A stretch of 64,000 nucleotides of DNA from an uncultured Anaerolineae bacterium (lineage in GTDB: Bacteria; Chloroflexota; Anaerolineae; J036; Brachytrichaceae): positions 1 to 64,000 of the forward strand of contig CALGMA010000001.1 in assembly GCA_937959265.1 (NCBI GenBank), given 5' to 3'. The position numbers and the translations under genes were made by a program. The first letter of the stretch is position 1. Every line of letters begins with the position of its first letter. The notes under the pieces were generated by a model. It saw only the letters and a program-made list of their open reading frames with translations. It did no database searches and was not told the DNA's origin. This document shows, one piece after another, positions 1,751 through 11,071 of the stretch.

Positions 1751-3670
1751 TTAATCCTGCGATGGCGCGCGCGTCACACGTCTTCGGTCGAGCTGCGCCT
1801 TGACGCGCATCGGCAAGCCGTAGAGCTTCACGAAGCCGTCAGCGTCGTCGTGGTCGTAGGCCGCGTCGGTGTTGAAGGTGGCCAGGTCTTCGCGGTAGAG
1901 CGAATAGGCGGCTCGGCGCTGCACGACCATCGCGTTGCCCTTGAACAACTTGACGCGCACGCTGCCGGTGACGTCGCGCTGAGTGACGGTGACGAAGGCC
2001 TGCAGCGCGTCGCGCAGCGGCGTGAACCACTGGCCGTTATAGACCACCTCGGCGTATTTGAGCGCCACGATCTGCTTGAAGTGCATGGTCTCGCGGTCGA
2101 GCGTGATCTCCTCCAGCCCCTGATGGGCGACGCGCAGGATGGTGCCGCCGGGGGCCTCGTCCAGCCGGCGCGTCTTCATGCCGATCAAGCGATTCTCCAC
2201 CAGATCGGCGCGGCCAATGCCATGCAGCGAGCCGATCTCGTTCAGCCGCTCAATGAGCGCGGCGCCACCCAGCGCGACGCCGTTCAGCCGCTTCGGTATG
2301 CCGTTGACGAATTCGACTTCAACGTATTCTGGCTGATCAGGCGTCTCCTCGATGGCGTTCGTCCATTCCCACAAGCACTCCTCCGGCTCGTACTCCAAGT
2401 CCTCCAGCCGGCCGCCTTCATGGTTGAAGTGCCAGAGGTTCTCGTCCATCGTGTATACGCCTTTCTCATACTCGCCCAGCGGCACGCCGCGCGAGCGGGC
2501 GTATTCATAGACCTCCTGCCGGCCGTCGAACTCCCACTCGCGCCAGGGCGCGATCACGCGCAGCTTGGGGTTCATCGCCATGTAGGTCAGCTCGAAGCGC
2601 ACTTGGTCGTTGCCTTTGCCGGTCGCGCCGTGCGCCACAGCGTCCGCGCCTTCGGCTTCGGCCACGTCCACCTGATGCTTGGCGATGAGCGGGCGCGAGA
2701 TGGAAGAACCGAGCAGATACTTGTTCTCGTAGATCGCGCCGCTTTGGATCAGCGGGAAGAGATATTCATTGGCGAACTCATCGCGCAAGTCTTTGATGAT
2801 GACCTTGCTCGCGCCGGTGTGCAACGCTTTCTGCCGGATGGCCTCGAAGTCCTCGCGCTGGCCAATGTCGGCGACGAAGCAGATCACTTCGCAGCCGTAG
2901 CTTTCAATCAGCCATGGCACAATGGCCGACGAATCAAGCCCGCCGTTGTAGGCCAGCACCACCTTTCGCACATCGCGCTTGGGAACGACGAAGCCCTGCA
3001 CGCGGTGCGTCTTGACCTCTTCGGCCAGCCGGGTGACCGTCTCCAGCGGGATGAGGTTCTCACGGCTGACGCCGCGCCGCGCGATGCGCCCGGCCTGGAT
3101 GGCTTGTAGCACGCGCTCGCGATCTTCGGGTGTGACGCGAATGGCGCCGGATTCGCCTTGCTGCAACGGCATCATCACGGCGACCTCGTCACAGTTCTCC
3201 AGCATCGGGCAGGCGACGCAGTCGTTCCACACCTTCTCGGGGAAGAACTCTTTGGGCGCTACGGCGAAGCCACACTTCTCGAAGAACCCGACAACGCGGG
3301 TGAGCGCGAAGATGGTGCCGAACTGGCGCCGACGCGCTTCTTCAACCAGGGCCGCAACGAGCCGTTGACCGACGCCGGCGCCGCGCACGGCCTCGTCCAC
3401 CGCCAGCGAACGCAGCTCAACCAGCGTGGCGTTCATCGGCAGGAGCGAACCACAGCCGACGATGCTGGATGAAGCGCCGGGCGCGTCCGGTCTTTCTTTC
3501 GACGATCCTTCGTTCGGGGCAACTTGCTCGGCAACCAGGAAATTGCCGATGTGCGCGCGCACGCTCGCCTCACCGCGCGGCAATAGCCCCCCCTTGCGCG
3601 CATTCTGCGCAATCAGCATGACGATGGCCGGCACATCGTCGAGCGTCGCGGGTCGAATAGTGACTGTCAC
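1751..3670 (-). CDS. fusion protein: ArgA-type GNAT acetyltransferase + argininosuccinate synthase
   Basis: Residues 1-165 form an N-acetylglutamate synthase-like GNAT domain with the acetyl-CoA motif GAGVGQRL (about 98-105) and the Cys-rich tail of this subfamily (Cys151, 154, 160, then CDEVAV). A linker of about 65 residues leads to a complete argininosuccinate synthase (about 235-639), recognised by ATGKGNDQVRFE and RPLIAKHQV. The protein would join the first acetylation step of arginine synthesis to the citrulline-aspartate ligation step. Its PP-loop reads YNGGLDSS (241-248) instead of the usual YSGGLDTS. The GNAT half contains an 18-residue low-complexity insert (about 50-69). The GTG at 3670, 13 bases after the argG stop, is chosen because the open frame upstream of it overlaps argG. 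It is last in the argC operon. The fusion is clear; which activities survive is not. Confidence 0.85.
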   Translation of the reverse strand: MTVTIRPATLDDVPAIVMLIAQNARKGGLLPRGEASVRAHIGNFLVAEQVAPNEGSSKERPDAPGASSSIVGCGSLLPMNATLVELRSLAVDEAVRGAGVGQRLVAALVEEARRRQFGTIFALTRVVGFFEKCGFAVAPKEFFPEKVWNDCVACPMLENCDEVAVMMPLQQGESGAIRVTPEDRERVLQAIQAGRIARRGVSRENLIPLETVTRLAEEVKTHRVQGFVVPKRDVRKVVLAYNGGLDSSAIVPWLIESYGCEVICFVADIGQREDFEAIRQKALHTGASKVIIKDLRDEFANEYLFPLIQSGAIYENKYLLGSSISRPLIAKHQVDVAEAEGADAVAHGATGKGNDQVRFELTYMAMNPKLRVIAPWREWEFDGRQEVYEYARSRGVPLGEYEKGVYTMDENLWHFNHEGGRLEDLEYEPEECLWEWTNAIEETPDQPEYVEVEFVNGIPKRLNGVALGGAALIERLNEIGSLHGIGRADLVENRLIGMKTRRLDEAPGGTILRVAHQGLEEITLDRETMHFKQIVALKYAEVVYNGQWFTPLRDALQAFVTVTQRDVTGSVRVKLFKGNAMVVQRRAAYSLYREDLATFNTDAAYDHDDADGFVKLYGLPMRVKAQLDRRRVTRAPSQD

Positions 3671-3683
3671 GGCAACCGGCCCT

Positions 3684-5099
<1,416 letters not shown>

Positions 5100-5150: not shown

Positions 5151-6389
5151 TCAACGCTGACTCGGGCGGGCAAATACCGTGCCGCCATCGCCGGCTAATC
5201 CCCCCAGGTCGGTGATGCGCACGCGACGCACGCCCGCGCCGAGCGCTTCTAGCGCCGCGCGCACCTTGGGGATCATGCCGCCGAAGATCGCGCCGTCGGC
5301 GATCATCGCTTCGACTTGGGCCGCGGAGAGATGCGGAATGAGCGAGCGGTCTGGACCGAGTACCCCCGGCACGTTGGTCACGAACGTGAGCATGTCGGCG
5401 TCCACCGCGACGGCAATCGCGCCGGCGACGTGATCGGCGTTGACGTTGTAGATCTCGCCATCGGCGCCCAGCGACATCGGCGCAATCACCGGCGTGAGGC
5501 CCTGCGCGAGCCATGCGGCGATCAGCGACGCGCGCGCGCTGACAGGCCGACCGACGAAGCCGAGTGCGTCGTTGAGGCGCTCCACGCGGATCAAGCCGGC
5601 GTCCAGGCCGCTGAGGCCGACGGCGTCCACGCCCTGCCCGATCAAGGCGGCAACCAATTTTTTGTTCGCCAGCCCACTCAACACCATCAGCGCCGCGTCG
5701 CGCGTCCGGGCATCGGTCACCCGCAGGCCGTCCACAAACTGCGTCGGCGCGTCCATCATCGCCAGCAGTTGGGTCAGCGCCTTGCCGCCGCCGTGCACGA
5801 TGATCGGCTGCGCTCCGGCGCGCTTCATCCGCGCGATGGACTCGGCGAACTGCGCCACAAAGGCCGGATCGTCCAGCTCGCCGCCGCCGACTTTGATCAC
5901 TTGCGCGCCGGCCGGCCGAGCCGGCGACAGGTCGAGGCCCAGGTAAATGAGGCCGGGGACGGTCGAAGTCTTGAAGGGCGGGATCTCGGTGAAGCCGAGT
6001 TGGCGATACAGCGCGACGGCGTCCTCCGCATCGGCCCAGGTGCTGATGGCCACCTGCGCAAATCCGCGCGCGCGTACGATCTCGATGACATGCTGCGAGA
6101 GAGCGCGCGCGATCCCCTTGCGGCGATATTCCGGCCGCACATAGACGCGCTTCATCTCGACCAGCGCCGGCGTGTGCTGCGTCCAGGCGGCTGTAGCGAT
6201 CGGTTGACCCTCATACAGCGCCAGGAACATGCCGCCATGCGGCGACGCGTAGCGCCCAGGCAAGTCTTGCAAGTCCTGCGCCATGCGCTCGCTGAAGCCG
6301 TTCGGACGCTCCCGAAAGTAGTCCTGTAGGAGCGCGCGAAACTGTGCGATCTGCTCCGGCGAGATGACCTCGACGATCTCGACGTTCAT
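5151..6389 (-). CDS. argB: GNAT acetyltransferase fused to acetylglutamate kinase
   Basis: The 412-residue protein has an N-terminal general GNAT domain (1-150; acetyl-CoA loop YRRKGIARAL, about 88-97) followed by an amino-acid kinase domain (164-412) of the acetylglutamate kinase type. The kinase shows VIKVGGGELD, IVHGGGKAL and NVNADHVAGAIA and would phosphorylate N-acetylglutamate. Known bifunctional NAGS/NAGK enzymes carry the kinase first and the GNAT domain last; here the order is reversed and the GNAT domain is not of the ArgA type. The ATG at 6389 overlaps the argC stop in an ATGA arrangement, so translation is probably coupled. Acetylglutamate could be made by this GNAT domain, by the one fused to ArgG, or by ArgJ elsewhere. 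Confidence 0.88.
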   Translation of the reverse strand: MNVEIVEVISPEQIAQFRALLQDYFRERPNGFSERMAQDLQDLPGRYASPHGGMFLALYEGQPIATAAWTQHTPALVEMKRVYVRPEYRRKGIARALSQHVIEIVRARGFAQVAISTWADAEDAVALYRQLGFTEIPPFKTSTVPGLIYLGLDLSPARPAGAQVIKVGGGELDDPAFVAQFAESIARMKRAGAQPIIVHGGGKALTQLLAMMDAPTQFVDGLRVTDARTRDAALMVLSGLANKKLVAALIGQGVDAVGLSGLDAGLIRVERLNDALGFVGRPVSARASLIAAWLAQGLTPVIAPMSLGADGEIYNVNADHVAGAIAVAVDADMLTFVTNVPGVLGPDRSLIPHLSAAQVEAMIADGAIFGGMIPKVRAALEALGAGVRRVRITDLGGLAGDGGTVFARPSQR

Positions 6390-7441
6390 CGCAACCCTTC
6401 GCATTCGTCCAGGCCGAACATGACATTCATGTTTTGCACGGCCTGGCCGCTTGCGCCCTTCACCAGGTTATCTATGCAAGAGACGATTTGCAGGCGATCG
6501 GGCATGTCGGCGACCGGATGCACCGAAAGCACGGCGTAGTTCGTGTGCGCGGCGTGGGCGATCGTCGCGACCTGGCCCTTCGGCAACACGCGCACGAACG
6601 GCTCGCCCTCGTAGCGCCGAACAAAGATGGCGTGCCAATCTTGACGAGCAGCCTGCGGGGTGAGCCGGACGTAGATCATGCTCAGCATGCCGCGCGAGAT
6701 CGGCAGCAGGTGCGGGCTGAAGATGACGCGGAGCGCCGCTCGCGCATCGCGGTCGGATTCGCTGCGATCCGCGTCGTTGCGCCAAGCCGCGTTTAGCTCC
6801 TGCTCGATCTCCGGCACATGGCGGTGCGCGTGGCCGATGTTGTAAGGCGCGAGCGATTCGTTCACTTCGACGAAGTGGGTAGCTTGCGATGGCTTGCGCC
6901 CCGCGCCGCTCACGCCGCTCTTGCTGTCGGCGATGATCACCGGATCGGCCAATGCGCCCAGCTCCAACAACGGCAACAGGGCAAGGATGATGCTGGTGGG
7001 ATAGCAGCCAGGGTTGGCCACCAGTTGCGCGTCGGCGATGTCGCGCCGATAGACCTCCGGCAGGCCATAGACGGCCTCGGCCAGCAATTCAGGATATGGG
7101 TGCGCGTGTTTGTACCACTCGGCGTAGGTCGCGGCGTCGCGCAATCGGAAGTCCGCCGAGAAGTCCACGACGCGCTTGCCGGCCTCCAACGCCCGTTTGC
7201 ACAGCTCGGCGCTGGCGCCGTGCGGCAGGCACGAGAACACGATGTCCACTTCGTCAAGCAGCGCATCGTCTGCCTGAACAAGGGGCAAGTCGAATAAGCA
7301 AGGCATCACGTCGCTCAGCTTCACGCCGGCGTGGCTTTCGCTGTGCGCGAAGACGATGCGCACGCGGCGGTGCCGCGCCAGCCATCTGATCAGTTCTGCG
7401 CCGGTATAGCCGGTCGCCCCGAAGATTCCCACCTTGATCAT
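6386..7441 (-). CDS. argC: N-acetyl-gamma-glutamyl-phosphate reductase
   Basis: ArgC reduces N-acetylglutamyl phosphate to the semialdehyde with NADPH, the third step of arginine synthesis. The 351-residue protein has the nucleotide-binding motif GATGYTGAEL (8-17) and the catalytic cysteine in NPGCYPT (Cys146). The start is the ATG that begins MIKVGIFG; an open frame reaches further upstream but runs through the attenuator hairpin and has no family similarity. It is the first gene of argC - GNAT-argB - argG - GNAT-argG. A paralogue, LysY, uses LysW-bound substrates, but the argG genes in the operon favour arginine. Confidence 0.93.
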   Translation of the reverse strand: MIKVGIFGATGYTGAELIRWLARHRRVRIVFAHSESHAGVKLSDVMPCLFDLPLVQADDALLDEVDIVFSCLPHGASAELCKRALEAGKRVVDFSADFRLRDAATYAEWYKHAHPYPELLAEAVYGLPEVYRRDIADAQLVANPGCYPTSIILALLPLLELGALADPVIIADSKSGVSGAGRKPSQATHFVEVNESLAPYNIGHAHRHVPEIEQELNAAWRNDADRSESDRDARAALRVIFSPHLLPISRGMLSMIYVRLTPQAARQDWHAIFVRRYEGEPFVRVLPKGQVATIAHAAHTNYAVLSVHPVADMPDRLQIVSCIDNLVKGASGQAVQNMNVMFGLDECEGLR

Positions 7442-7500: not shown

Positions 7501-7534
7501 AAGCCCCTAACACCGTGCCGTGTGTCAGGGGCTT
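7501..7534 (-). terminator. attenuator terminator hairpin before argC
   Basis: On the minus strand a 13-bp stem (7522-7534 with 7501-7513, one G-U pair) closes an 8-nt loop. AAGCCCCT pairs with AGGGGCTT at its base. The 3' side continues CTTTCCATTTT, a moderately U-rich tail. It lies between the leader peptide stop and argC. Confidence 0.75.
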
Positions 7535-7561
7535 CGCTGCGAAAACCGAGCGCAATCGAGA

Positions 7562-7645
7562 CTAGCCTCGTCGCGCGCGCGCGCATGCGCCGGACACACG
7601 GCCCATGGAACGCAGACGACGGAAGCAGATCTCGAAAGCCACCAT
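7562..7645 (-). CDS. arginine-rich leader peptide of the arg operon
   Basis: A 27-codon reading frame, too short for ordinary gene calling, starts at ATG 7645 and stops with TAG at 7562-7564, 28 bases before the terminator stem. It encodes seven Arg residues (positions 9, 10, 12, 16, 23, 25, 26), including adjacent pairs 9-10 and 25-26. The start follows the -10 box by 10 bases, so it would be translated from a leaderless or nearly leaderless mRNA. Its likely role is sensing charged tRNA-Arg, not a function of the peptide itself. Confidence 0.65.
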   Translation of the reverse strand: MVAFEICFRRLRSMGRVSGACARARRG

Positions 7646-7655
7646 TTCGCTGCGC

Positions 7656-7683
7656 ATTATATGAGGGTGAGCGCACATGTCAA
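7656..7683 (-). promoter_or_regulatory. consensus sigma-70 promoter of the arginine operon
   Basis: Perfect -35 TTGACA (7678-7683) and -10 TATAAT (7656-7661) hexamers are separated by 16 bp on the minus strand. They lie just after the stop of the upstream permease gene. This is the best promoter match in the window, which fits control by termination rather than by initiation. Confidence 0.85.
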
Positions 7684-7694
7684 CGCGGGTTTGC

Positions 7695-8480
7695 TCAATG
7701 CACGTCGGTCGTCCGGCTCGTCCAGCGATACGCCAGGTAAATGGGGATGGTGGTGATGGCGATGACGATGAAGGCAGCGACGTTGGTCACCGGCCGTTGG
7801 CGCGGGCGAGTGAGTTGAGCGAACATCCAGATTGGCAAAGTCTGTTGCTGGCCGGCGGTGAACGTGGTGACGATCACCTCATCGAACGACAATGCGAAGG
7901 CCAGCATCGCGCCGGCCAGCAGCGCTGTCGCCAACTCCGGCAGCACTACGTAGCGGAAGGTCTGGAGGCTATTCGCGCCCAGGTCCATCGAGGCTTCGAC
8001 CAACGACTTGCTCATGCGCCGGAAGCGCGCCAACGCGTTGTTGTACACCGTCACCACGCAAAACGTGGCATGGCCGATTACGATCGTCCCGAAGCTGAAG
8101 GGAATCTCGAACAAGCCGATGGACGAGCGCAGGGCAATGCCAGTGACGATGCCGGGCAGCGCAATCGGCAACAACAGCAGCAACGAGATCGTCTCGCGAC
8201 CAAAGAATCGCGTGCGATACACCGCCGCAGCGGCCAGTGTGCCTAGCACCAGCGCGACTGCCGTGGCCGCTGCTGCAACTTGCAACGACAGACCTAGTGC
8301 CCGCCAGAAGTCCGGGCGTTGCAGCGTGACCGCGAACCAGTTCAACGTGAGACCCGGCGGCGGGAAGGTGAAGGCCGCCTCTTCGATGTTGAAGGCGTAG
8401 GACAACACGATGAACAGCGGCACGTGCAGAAATGCAAGCGCGGCGAACGCAGCGACTTTCAACCCGAGTGATGCTCTCAT
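7695..8480 (-). CDS. potC: polyamine ABC transporter permease, PotC/YdcV-like
   Basis: A 261-residue inner-membrane permease with about six hydrophobic segments and the EAA loop region ([20 protein letters not shown]) that docks on the ATPase. It belongs to the spermidine/putrescine PotC family. It is the last gene of potA-potB-potC on the minus strand; the binding protein is encoded separately on the plus strand at 17.3 kb. An aminobutyraldehyde dehydrogenase gene beside that binding protein argues for putrescine as substrate, as in the E. coli ydcSTUVW set. No terminator is visible between it and the arginine promoter. Confidence 0.85.
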
Positions 8481-8483
8481 CGT

Positions 8484-8576
8484 TAGGGTGTCATTCGTGT
8501 CATCAGTGTCGCTGGTGTCGGCAGCGTCAACTGATCTGACACCAACGACACTGTTGACAACACCGACGCTACCTCT
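8484..8576 (-). repeat. GTGTC/GACAC-rich inverted-repeat element between potB and potC
   Basis: The 96-base gap is filled with GTGTC units followed by their complements. The best pair is AGTGTCGCTGGTGTC (8505-8519) against GACACCAACGACACT (8538-8552), 14 of 15 complementary over an 18-base loop. The same 15-mer recurs at 18545 after the polyamine-binding protein gene. Confidence 0.7.
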
Positions 8577-9482
8577 TCACAGTGCCTCCAGCGCGCCGGC
8601 GCGCTTGGCGATCAGCAAATAGACGATCATCACGACGACCGGCACGATGGTGAATGCAGCCGCCAGCGGGATGTTGCCGCTGCTGCCCTGAAACGACAAT
8701 ACCGCCTGACCGATGAAGAAGCTGGAGTTACCCAGCACGGTCGGCACGATGAAGTCACCGAGGGTGAGCGAAAAGGTGAAAATCGAGCCAGCGATCACTC
8801 CCGGCATGGCCAGCGGCAACGTGACATACCGGAAGGTCGCGTTCGGCCGGGCGCCCAGATCGCCTGACGCTTCCAGCAGCGAGCGCGGCACGCGCTCCAA
8901 GGCAGCCTGCACTGGCAAGATCATATAGGGCAACCACACATAGACAAACACGAAGAACATCCCAAGCGGCGAGAACGAAAGCGACGGACCACCGATGCCC
9001 GGAATGCTTAACACGGCCTCCAACAAGCCGCTCAGCCCCAGCCGCTCGAAGAACCAGGTGATGATGCCCTCCTTCGCCAAGATGAGTTTCCAGGCATATA
9101 CGCGGATCAGGTAGCTCGACCAGAGCGGTAACAGCACGGCCAGATAGAAGATTCCTTTCCAACGCGGCGGGGCATAGCGCACCATGTAATAGGCGAGTGG
9201 GAAAGCGATGATCGCGCAGGCAATCGTCACCGTCGCCGCCATCAGCGCCGTGCGCAGGAAGATTTCCAAATTGGCCGGCTGCAGCAGCGCTAGGTAGTTC
9301 TGTAGCGTGAACTCGCGCACTACCTGGCCGGTAAAGTCGTCCAAACGCCACAGGCTGTTCAGCAACAACACCCCTAGCGGGACGATGTAGAAGACCAGCA
9401 TGTAAGCCAGCGGCGGCGCGAGCAGCAACAGCAGCGCCAACCACGGCCGCTTATAAATCGTCGTCGAGAGCGAAGTCAACAT
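8577..9482 (-). CDS. potB: polyamine ABC transporter permease, PotB/YdcU-like
   Basis: A 301-residue permease of the PotB family with six predicted membrane segments (first about residues 14-42) and the EAA loop LLEASGDLGARPNATFRYVTLP. It pairs with PotC to form the membrane channel for spermidine or putrescine uptake. It lies 61 bases after potA and is separated from potC by a repeat-filled gap. Specificity cannot be read from the permease. Confidence 0.85.
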   Translation of the reverse strand: MLTSLSTTIYKRPWLALLLLLAPPLAYMLVFYIVPLGVLLLNSLWRLDDFTGQVVREFTLQNYLALLQPANLEIFLRTALMAATVTIACAIIAFPLAYYMVRYAPPRWKGIFYLAVLLPLWSSYLIRVYAWKLILAKEGIITWFFERLGLSGLLEAVLSIPGIGGPSLSFSPLGMFFVFVYVWLPYMILPVQAALERVPRSLLEASGDLGARPNATFRYVTLPLAMPGVIAGSIFTFSLTLGDFIVPTVLGNSSFFIGQAVLSFQGSSGNIPLAAAFTIVPVVVMIVYLLIAKRAGALEAL

Positions 9483-9543
9483 CTCTCCTGCACGATTGTC
9501 ACATCACCCGCGACGCTCATGACATCATTGACGGCCTGATCAA

Positions 9544-10560
9544 CTATGCCAGCCACCGCAGGTGTTCCGGATGCCATGCCAGCGTGACGCGCTGGCCGCG
9601 CGGCAAGGTACGAGAATCCAGGTTTTGCTCGATCACCACCAGGTCGCCGCCGCTGTCCAGTTCGACCAGATAGCGCATGTGCGTACCCAAATACACGACA
9701 TCGCGCACGACGCCGCGCGCCGATTGCATGTCTTCGGCGACGCGCTGATCCACGCCAACGATGCGAATCTTCTCTGGCCGGATCGAAACTGTGCCCGTCA
9801 GCCCGGTCAGTGCGCGCGCGTGCTCTCCGCTCAGCAGGTTCGACGTGCCCAAAAAGCTGGCGACGAACGCCGTGGCCGGCTTCTCGTACATCTCCTCCGG
9901 CGTGCCAATCTGCTCTACCTTGCCGTGGTTGAACACGGCGATGCGATCGCTCATCGTCAGCGCCTCTTCCTGATCATGGGTAACGAAGATGAACGTAATG
10001 CCGACCTTCTTCTGGATCGCTTTCAATTCGATCTGCATCTGCTGGCGAAGCTTGAGGTCAAGCGCACCAAGCGGCTCATCAAGCAGCAGCACGCGCGGGT
10101 GATTGATGAGCGCGCGCGCCAGCGCAACGCGCTGGCGCTGGCCGCCGGAGAGTTGCGACGGCTTGCGTCCCTCGAAGCCGCTCAACTGTACGAGATCGAG
10201 TATCTCGCGCACACGTCGCATCCGTTCCGGCTTGGGCACTTTACGGATCATCAAGCCGTAGGCAATGTTGTCGGCCACGTTCATGTGCGGGAAGAGCGCG
10301 TAGTCCTGAAAGACGGTGTTCACGTCGCGCTCATAGGGCGGCATGCCAGTCACGTCTTGCCCACGCAGGAAGATGCGGCCGGCAGTGGGTTGGTCGAAGC
10401 CAGCGATCAAGCGCAGGCAAGTGGTCTTGCCACTGCCGCTCGGCCCGAGCATGGTAAAGAATTCCCCATCGGCGATGTCGAAAGTCACATCATCCACAGC
10501 TCGCACATCGCCAAAGTGGCGCGAAACGTGATCGAGGCGCACGGCGTAATCGGACTGCAT
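9544..10560 (-). CDS. potA: polyamine ABC transporter ATPase, PotA-like
   Basis: A 338-residue ATPase with Walker [10 protein letters not shown] (39-47), signature LSGGQRQR (137-144), Walker [10 protein letters not shown] (157-165) and a C-terminal TOBE domain. The C-terminal domain and the neighbouring PotB/PotC genes identify it as the energising subunit of a spermidine/putrescine importer. The start is the ATG that begins MQSDYAVRL; the upstream frame extension passes through the promoter. It is first in the minus-strand operon. Confidence 0.88.
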
Positions 10561-10575
10561 TGTTCGCTCGCCGGA

Positions 10576-10603
10576 AGTGTACCGACCTGACCGAATTTGT
10601 CCA
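10576..10603 (-). promoter_or_regulatory. probable promoter of potABC
   Basis: On the minus strand TGGACA (10598-10603) and TACACT (10576-10581) are spaced by 16 bp, 15 bases before the potA ATG. Five of six -35 bases and four of six -10 bases match consensus. Confidence 0.5.
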
Positions 10604-11071
10604 TCACGCAAGCGACGGCGCGTTGCCCCAGGCCTATGGCGACCCGAGGCGATATACAACAACCCAACCCCACAATACATAGCTTAACCGGATGTTTACC
10701 TTTTATTTCATTACACACAATTCAAATTTAATCAATTTAAGTACTTTAATGCAATAAACAAATATGGGTTTACACACAGTGCACCTATGCCTGATTGACC
10801 CTGTTTGCAGGGTATCGCTACAAGTTATCCATTTGCGTGCAGGCGCAAGCGGTAGCGTCGCACAACTCGTGCAGTATTCCCCCATGGTCGCGACAATCTG
10901 AGTGGCGAGGGACAGTCGCGAAGAAGAGGGCGTTCGCTCGCGGGCAGAACGCGCAGTCACTTCGGTAGTTCATCACGGTTACAACGAAGCCGCCGGTTGA
11001 CGATGCGCTGAGGCCGAATTCGCTATCGCAAATACCAGTTCCGCCTATCGAAAGTTATTGAGGTAGTTCAG
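10604..11071. other. intergenic region with AT-rich island between potABC and the exopolysaccharide operon
   Basis: About 470 bases without a supported gene separate two divergent operons. Bases 10680-10775 are strikingly AT-rich for this genome and contain the palindrome AAGTACTT (10739-10746). A small hairpin ACCCTG-TTTG-CAGGGT lies at 10798-10813. The region probably holds promoters and operators for both operons, but no clear promoter for the 11072 gene was found; the nearest TTGACG...TATCGC pair has a 21-bp spacer. Confidence 0.5.

Follow-up and report, generated by a model that had tools for sequence, protein, structure and literature searches.

A candidate leader-peptide attenuator for arginine biosynthesis ahead of argC, recurrent across Anaerolineae

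The window of this study, by which we mean the whole stretch of 64,000 nt that was analysed, comes from an uncultured Anaerolineae bacterium (GCA_937959265.1, contig CALGMA010000001.1, positions 1 to 64,000). On its minus strand, a sigma-70-type promoter is followed by an Arg-rich ORF, a hairpin, and argC, which is the first gene past the leader and starts with ATG at 7441. The genes argC, argB, argG, and argG2 all lie on this same strand, so that the leader precedes an arginine gene cluster with the following features:

7656-7683, minus strand: promoter with a -35 box TTGACA (7683-7678), a 16-nt spacer, and a -10 box TATAAT (7661-7656)
7562-7645, minus strand: leader-peptide ORF with an ATG start, 27 codons including 7 Arg codons, and stop codon TAG (7564-7562)
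7610-7621, minus strand: putative regulatory codons, i.e., tandem Arg codons 9-10 (7621-7616) and Arg codon 12 (7612-7610)
7591-7605, minus strand: pre-emptor hairpin 1:2 (TGGGC/GTCCG), which would sequester segment 2
7593-7602, minus strand: segment 2, the 5' strand of the predicted antiterminator (GCCGTGTGTC), within the leader ORF
7517-7526, minus strand: segment 3, the 3' strand of the predicted antiterminator (GACACACGGC), overlapping the 5' arm and loop of the terminator
7501-7534, minus strand: intrinsic terminator hairpin 3:4 with 13 pairs, loop 7521-7514, and U-rich tail 7500-7493
6386-7441, minus strand: argC, N-acetyl-gamma-glutamyl-phosphate reductase (TIGR01850, 380 bits, cut-off 233.6)
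5151-6404, minus strand: fusion of a GNAT-like domain and acetylglutamate kinase (argB; TIGR00761 at residues 169-397, over the cut-off)
3684-5087, minus strand: argG, argininosuccinate synthase of the PRK05370 type (NF003779, 824 bits, over the cut-off)
1751-3718, minus strand: fusion of an N-acetyltransferase-like domain and a second argininosuccinate synthase (argG2; NF001770 at residues 249-644, over the cut-off)

The start of the argB fusion gene overlaps the end of argC, and the N-terminal part of the argG2 fusion matches NF005840 at residues 19-185 with 135 bits, below the cut-off of 154. This arginine cluster contains two gene fusions and two different types of argG. Directly upstream of the argC leader and on the same strand lies a polyamine-type ABC transporter (7695-10680, minus strand; two permeases and an ATPase), of which the ATPase alone passes a curated cut-off (TIGR01187). 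No comparable leader was noticed by eye in the surroundings of argH and argF of the same genome, and a search of plasmid sequences found no DNA near-identical to the locus.

An initial annotation of this DNA had described a perfect TTGACA-16-TATAAT promoter driving a 27-codon frame with seven Arg codons, followed by a 13-bp terminator and argC, and all of these elements are found in place. The promoter matches the consensus at 12/12 positions, and ORF 7645-7562 encodes the 27-aa product MVAFEICFRRLRSMGRVSGACARARRG. Transcription is expected to begin near 7650-7649; the ORF starts 10 nt past the -10 box and would therefore be nearly leaderless. The terminator is built from the arms AAGCCCCTGACAC (7534-7522) and GTGTTAGGGGCTT (7513-7501) around an 8-nt loop, with one G-U among its 13 pairs and a folding energy of -23.3 kcal/mol (7534-7497). 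Its tail TCCATTTT is U-rich and interrupted, and this terminator was missed by a strict terminator scan and picked up by a looser one. The complementarity that had been noted between 7593-7602 and 7517-7526 is likewise real, with GCCGTGTGTC (7602-7593) being a perfect 10-nt complement of GACACACGGC (7526-7517) on the 5' side of the terminator, and the pre-emptor 1:2 is a third element that the initial annotation did not contain.

On its own, the window's leader makes a suggestive case. A perfect complement of at least 10 nt arises in 42 of 20,000 dinucleotide shuffles of this leader, and finding 7 or more Arg among 26 codons is unremarkable for such a GC-rich composition (P = 0.17), so that the significance of the Arg codons comes from comparative data and not from the window. 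For this comparison, we looked for argC in two sets of genomes, 60 relatives, of which 55 gave a match, and 249 members of the class, of which 149 did so at E <= 1e-60. A total of 144 argC loci were taken (30 from the relatives, 14 from the class search, and 100 more). The argC start could be placed in 140 of them, and 136 from 33 families have at least 250 nt of upstream sequence; family labels (f1, f2, etc.) are those of our search tables. We take the comparison class to be Anaerolineae because the argC of L040, the best named match and from an uncultured Anaerolineae MAG (69% identity), has an upstream region identical to that of L017 from the window's family.

A terminator, i.e., a hairpin with a T-run, is found in 122 of the 136 upstream regions, and 116 of these 122 have an ORF with an Arg cluster ahead of it, defined as at least 3 Arg in 8 codons and an end no more than 110 nt before the terminator. 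An ungapped helix of at least 6 bp between the leader and the terminator arm can be drawn for 100 of the 116, whose ORFs were picked automatically and sometimes in the wrong frame (e.g., for L009 and L130). Homologues thus largely keep the combination of Arg codons and complementarity (116/136 for terminator and Arg-cluster ORF, 100 of them with the helix), and the his/trp-type layout proposed for arginine gains support from the comparison over all 136 regions. Among the 14 regions in which no terminator was detected, the element is present by eye in L123, L160, L181, and L204, and it seems to be absent in 10 of the 136 (three in f25, four in f14, and one each in f52, f38, and f19).

These frequencies exceed those of shuffled sequence. 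Across loci that are related and hence not independent trials, though spanning about 30 families, terminators were found in 121/134 real regions compared with 11/402 dinucleotide shuffles and 21/134 reverse strands. When everything but the terminator was shuffled, at least 3 Arg in 8 codons occurred in 147/363 sequences versus 115/121 real regions, and at least 4 Arg in 8 codons in 47/363 versus 77/121. No other amino acid clusters in this way, with the runner-up Ala reaching 4 in 8 codons in 11/121. By eye, the leader is intact in L002, L004, and L005 even though their sequences ahead of the promoter show no apparent relation to that of the window. An exact motif search of 28 genomes of the family had matches in 5, each upstream of argC, but used a gap range of 60-90 that excludes the window's own spacing of 58, so that it carries no information on copy number. 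Outside the phylum, 64 loci gave a terminator in 34 and an ORF passing a loose Arg criterion in 23; going by the motif of ribosomal protein S9, 20 of the 23 end like that protein, and we rejected these 20 as leaders.

The Arg codons themselves behave as expected of retained clusters, which are kept across 30 families despite codon changes. In the window's genus, ORF and Arg cluster are kept in all 7 loci (L001-L007), and codons 9-10 and 12 are conserved in the genus alignment. Leader codon 7 (7627-7625), two codons ahead of the tandem Arg pair, is Cys (TGC) in the window and Arg (CGC) in the six other aligned members of the genus, i.e., one Arg codon was lost in this genome. Over the 116 loci, the cluster codons are CGT (152), CGC (149), AGG (88), CGA (34), CGG (17), and AGA (8), with preferences that follow the family: f36, f23, and f20 mostly use AGG, whereas f1, f10, and f35 mostly use CGN. 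Arg identity is therefore retained over 30 families while the codons swap between CGN and AGG. Apart from Arg, the peptides vary freely between families, and within the window's family some other residues recur, such as VSG behind the Arg cluster. Seven leader peptides searched against Pfam (E <= 1) gave one unrelated match (PF17855, E 0.09), and neither Pfam nor NCBIfam gave a leader-peptide family for these seven.

A perfect TATAAT lies 4-10 nt ahead of an in-frame start codon in 20 of 21 loci of the window's family, and this spacing would put the ORF start at the expected 5' end of the transcript or no more than a few bases away. A leaderless leader peptide has a precedent in trpL of Sinorhizobium meliloti, as described in the cited part of PMC7298713. 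Outside the window's family, the start codon often lies farther from the -10-like site. Such a site followed by an in-frame start is found in 62 of all 116 loci, with the start 5-9 nt away in 21 of these 62, and a promoter-like site (at least 9/12) lies near the ORF start in 74 of the 116.

Compensatory changes, which had been named as a check of both stems, are seen for some of the helices. The alignment of 21 sequences of the window's family shows both-side changes at 6 of 13 pairs of the terminator and at 3 of 7 counted pairs of the pre-emptor. The covariation score of each was matched by 0 of 500 shuffles and exceeds those of all slid versions (six for 1:2), though both helices were read off the very sequences tested, which favours them somewhat. 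For 2:3, compensation is seen between families, but not within the window's family, whose alignment has no 2:3 covariation beyond shuffles because segment 2 is nearly invariant there; the 2:3 pairing is nearly invariant too, with 84% of cells paired, and the proposed register (0.073) is outscored by one in which the partner is shifted by +2 columns (0.091). In other families, the expected layout of 1:2 can be recognized by eye as a partial copy of segment 3 (e.g., CCAGACC) ahead of segment 2 (GGTCTGG) in L024, L026, L028, L127, L159, L196, and L224, and segment 2 of these families often extends to the stop codon (GTCTGGATAG).

Segments 2 and 3 differ in sequence across families and still match each other, as in GCCGTGTGTC/GACACACGGC of the window, CTATGTCTGGA/TCCAGACATAG, ATGAGGTTCG/CGAACCTCAT, CGGTCTGGCG/CGCCAGACCG, and GTGGGTCTGG/CCAGACCCAC, and two f77 genomes are set apart by a compensating change (GAGGTTCGG/CCGAACCTC versus GTGGTTCAG/CTGAACCGT). 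We quantified this matching by a permutation test across families, chosen after single-genome tests of 2:3 had proved too weak to decide, in which cognate pairs are compared with permuted ones using one genome per family, 30 families, and 20 draws. A blind 95-nt leader gave a median z of 6.9 and a median p of 0.0002, which is the permutation floor, and leaders anchored past the Arg cluster gave a median z of 5.2 with the median p again at the floor; a control region upstream of the ORF had no excess complementarity (z -0.7). Pairing of 2:3 in homologues thus holds across families (z about 7), but it does not reach significance in many single genomes and went unseen in some families. Genome by genome, p <= 0.05 is reached in 42/122 with a median p of 0.13, and a median p <= 0.1 in 13 of 30 families. 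The reversed-arm control was beaten in 77 of 122 cases, tied in 22, and not beaten in 23, and in a cruder test the cognate leader beats 95% of foreign leaders in 38/122 and 95% of shuffled leaders in 47/122. There is little or no support for 2:3 in f14, f31, f41, f26, and f22, and little in f38.

Folding of the alternative RNAs, another check that had been suggested, gives the expected outcome in silico. Assuming a ribosome footprint of 14-15 nt downstream of the A site, the RNA of the window emerging up to the terminator loop folds into 2:3 when the ribosome is placed at codons 9 or 10, five 2:3 pairs are left at codon 12, and none at codon 16 or beyond. The terminator becomes the more stable fold once the hairpin is complete, and the decision must hence fall while the RNA is being transcribed, as in trp. 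The window's stop codon lies 28 nt beyond segment 2, and a ribosome at the stop would therefore leave segment 2 uncovered, such that pairing with segment 1 must do the work. This stall test was run on 113 of the 116 loci: the arm pairing of the Arg-stalled state exceeds that of the stop-stalled state in 93 of them and likewise surpasses the mean of shuffled leaders in 93, with p <= 0.1 in 52/113 when taken singly. Within the window's family, 7 of 21 reach the floor (0.03) and the clearest failures are L012, L015, and L020; family means lower than the shuffled one are seen for f4, f14, f30, and f32. A long-range stem (7635-7630 with 7561-7556) encloses the Arg codons and segment 2 when the window's leader is folded without a ribosome. 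A GC-rich motif, GC..GGGC, recurs by eye just past the leader stop in L024, L026, L028, L129, L131, and others, and may pair with sequence just ahead of the Arg cluster, possibly as an enclosing stem.

The usual means of arginine control appear to be missing, in line with the initial view of this leader as a departure from ArgR-type repressors and T-boxes. The window's genome (94% complete) has no match to ArgR (PF01316), and a search of the window against the whole Rfam 15 library at gathering scores returned no T-box and, as its sole match, an FMN riboswitch (RF00050, 36077-36201, plus strand, 99.7 bits). Twelve representative loci searched against the whole of Rfam 15 gave nothing at E <= 0.1, T-box included. 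Across the class, ArgR matches at E <= 0.001 occur in 7 of 249 genomes, of which 3 pass the cut-off as partial matches (45/70 positions), leaving 246 without ArgR over the cut-off; the three are all in f46, a family that also has the attenuator (L226 and L228).

Elsewhere in the phylum, a sample of 201 genomes has an ArgR match in 41 (39 over the cut-off), and among the matches listed none falls under f1, f77, or f103. In at least 26 of the 41, ArgR lies on the argC contig, on the same strand and within about 5 kb (e.g., G426, G433, G341, G404, and G369), which suggests that other Chloroflexota have an argR-containing arg operon and that regulators were swapped between lineages. A terminator is missing from 31 of 40 argC loci that represent 37 other Chloroflexota families, and a terminator with an Arg ORF by the loose criterion is present in 6. 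Four of these six (L235-L238, leaving out L248 and L251) were taken into the helix check, which found helices of 9-10 bp in L235 (f103) and in L237 and L238 (f77), and of 6 bp in L236 (f103). Named public Chloroflexota loci, which partly repeat genomes of the comparison set, have a terminator in 8 of 12 cases and an Arg ORF in all 8. Given the near absence of ArgR from the class and the few attenuators elsewhere, the switch looks characteristic of Anaerolineae and a few neighbours, where it would replace ArgR.

With its parts, their recurrence, their co-variation, and the near absence of ArgR as the basis from sequence and comparison, we think that the argC leader is very probably a ribosome-mediated transcription attenuator with charged tRNA-Arg as its signal. 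Transcription would begin just ahead of the short ORF with its Arg-codon cluster. When arginyl-tRNA is scarce, the ribosome would stall on the tandem Arg codons and keep segment 1 from pairing, so that segment 2 (GCCGUGUGUC) could pair with segment 3 (GACACACGGC), the terminator's 5' side, while the 3' arm has yet to be transcribed. With 2:3 formed, transcription would continue into argC-argB-argG-argG2. When arginine is plentiful, the ribosome would advance, segment 2 would lie under the ribosome or pair with segment 1, and the terminator 3:4 would form and stop transcription. Translation of the ORF, ribosome stalling, read-through, and their dependence on arginine are the predicted steps of this switch.

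Other explanations could account for parts of these observations. A conserved ORF in which non-Arg residues such as VSG recur within the window's family could encode an arrest peptide through which arginine or a related metabolite is sensed inside the ribosome tunnel itself, and not by way of uncharged tRNA-Arg, and arrest peptides of such kind are known from the fungal arginine attenuator peptide and SpeFL. We consider this very improbable: the peptides vary freely from family to family apart from Arg, the VSG/SG stretch falls on segment 2 and its recurrence can be explained by RNA pairing, and a stall at high arginine would here turn the genes on, which is the wrong sign for a biosynthetic operon.

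Slightly less probable still is that the hairpin simply ends transcription of the transport gene upstream (7695-8480, minus strand) or terminates constitutively, with the Arg ORF as a by-product of GC-rich sequence. The upstream gene does lie on the same strand, and the Arg count in the window alone is not significant, but the hairpin sits downstream of a perfect promoter and the leader appears intact in L002, L004, and L005 despite their unrelated-looking upstream sequence. Arg clustering and 2:3 matching moreover exceed shuffles and the control region, and the Arg codons change type; such comparative results make a plain terminator unlikely. Just as far-fetched, in our estimate, would be an RNA that binds a ligand or protein (a T-box, an arginine riboswitch, or a repressor-binding leader) and controls argC with the ORF being incidental. 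A terminator with alternative pairing is indeed typical of riboswitches and T-boxes as well, yet the argC leader and the 12 representative loci have no Rfam match, no large conserved aptamer is seen, and what recurs are Arg codons and short complementary segments whose sequence differs by family.

The best reading is therefore still a his/trp-type attenuator specific for arginine that is widespread in Anaerolineae and also found in at least two other Chloroflexota families. It seems probable that this arginine-biosynthesis attenuator spans about 30 Anaerolineae families plus f77 and f103, acts as a stand-in for ArgR, and is nearly leaderless in the window's family. If so, an RNA switch would replace a regulator across a large group of bacteria whose regulatory biology is little known, and the nearly leaderless mRNA of the window's family would let the ribosome load once the RNA emerges. 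A lineage-wide arginine attenuator would also supply a ready arginine sensor.

The trp and his operons are where attenuation was elucidated, whereas control of the arginine pathway has been assigned to repressors such as ArgR. The attenuators of the trp and his operons place a leader ORF with codons of the pathway and the helices 1:2, 2:3, and 3:4 before a biosynthetic operon. The argC leader is alike in having the pathway's codons in its leader ORF, a 1:2 pre-emptor, a 2:3 antiterminator, and a 3:4 terminator before the operon. It differs in that it concerns arginine and Chloroflexota, in the start codon 4-10 nt past the -10 box (20/21 loci of the window's family), and in that segment 2 can sit well upstream of the stop codon. 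The theory of ribosome-mediated attenuation at trp and his is treated in the cited part of PMC1183508. Beyond Proteobacteria, leader-peptide attenuators have been reported from Actinobacteria (PMC1262725) and, as a histidine leader, from Bacilli (PMC2965389); in the passages cited they are named for Trp, Leu, Cys, Ilv, and His, unlike the argC leader, and the main texts of both papers contain no word beginning with Chloroflex. In Rhodobacterales, the cysS leader motif uORFC-8-2 has a conserved uORF with tandem Cys codons and is described as showing characteristics of ribosome-mediated attenuation, but according to the cited part of PMC8632094 it belongs to cysteine, a tRNA-synthetase gene, and alpha-proteobacteria.

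The nearest known systems link arginine to leader peptides or Arg codons in other ways. The carA gene of Pseudomonas aeruginosa, which serves both arginine and pyrimidine synthesis, has a leader peptide for which attenuation has been proposed, but in the cited part of PMC4997734 the attenuation is ascribed to pyrimidines while arginine is said to act on transcription. In E. coli, tandem CGG codons of argA have been proposed as an arginyl-tRNA sensor that feeds back on arginine synthesis; unlike the argC leader, these codons lie within a coding region and concern a model prediction of positive feedback with no attenuator, as far as the cited part of PMC10325894 goes. A further one is orf34 in the Salmonella speF leader, where, as in the argC leader, the leader ORF carries such codons and two consecutive ones sense arginine and alter the RNA fold (cited part of PMC6386406). 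In that same part, orf34 acts on ornithine decarboxylase via Rho-dependent termination, translation, and RNase G decay, and sequence analysis gave no rho-independent terminator. The orf34 peptide belongs to DUF2618, to which the seven argC leader peptides have no match. The initial suggestion that a leader-peptide system for arginine would be a new case agrees with the open-licence literature searched, in which we found no attenuator of arginine biosynthesis. As far as we found, the amino acid, the phylum, and the breadth of the argC leader are new, while the mechanism itself would be of the his/trp type.
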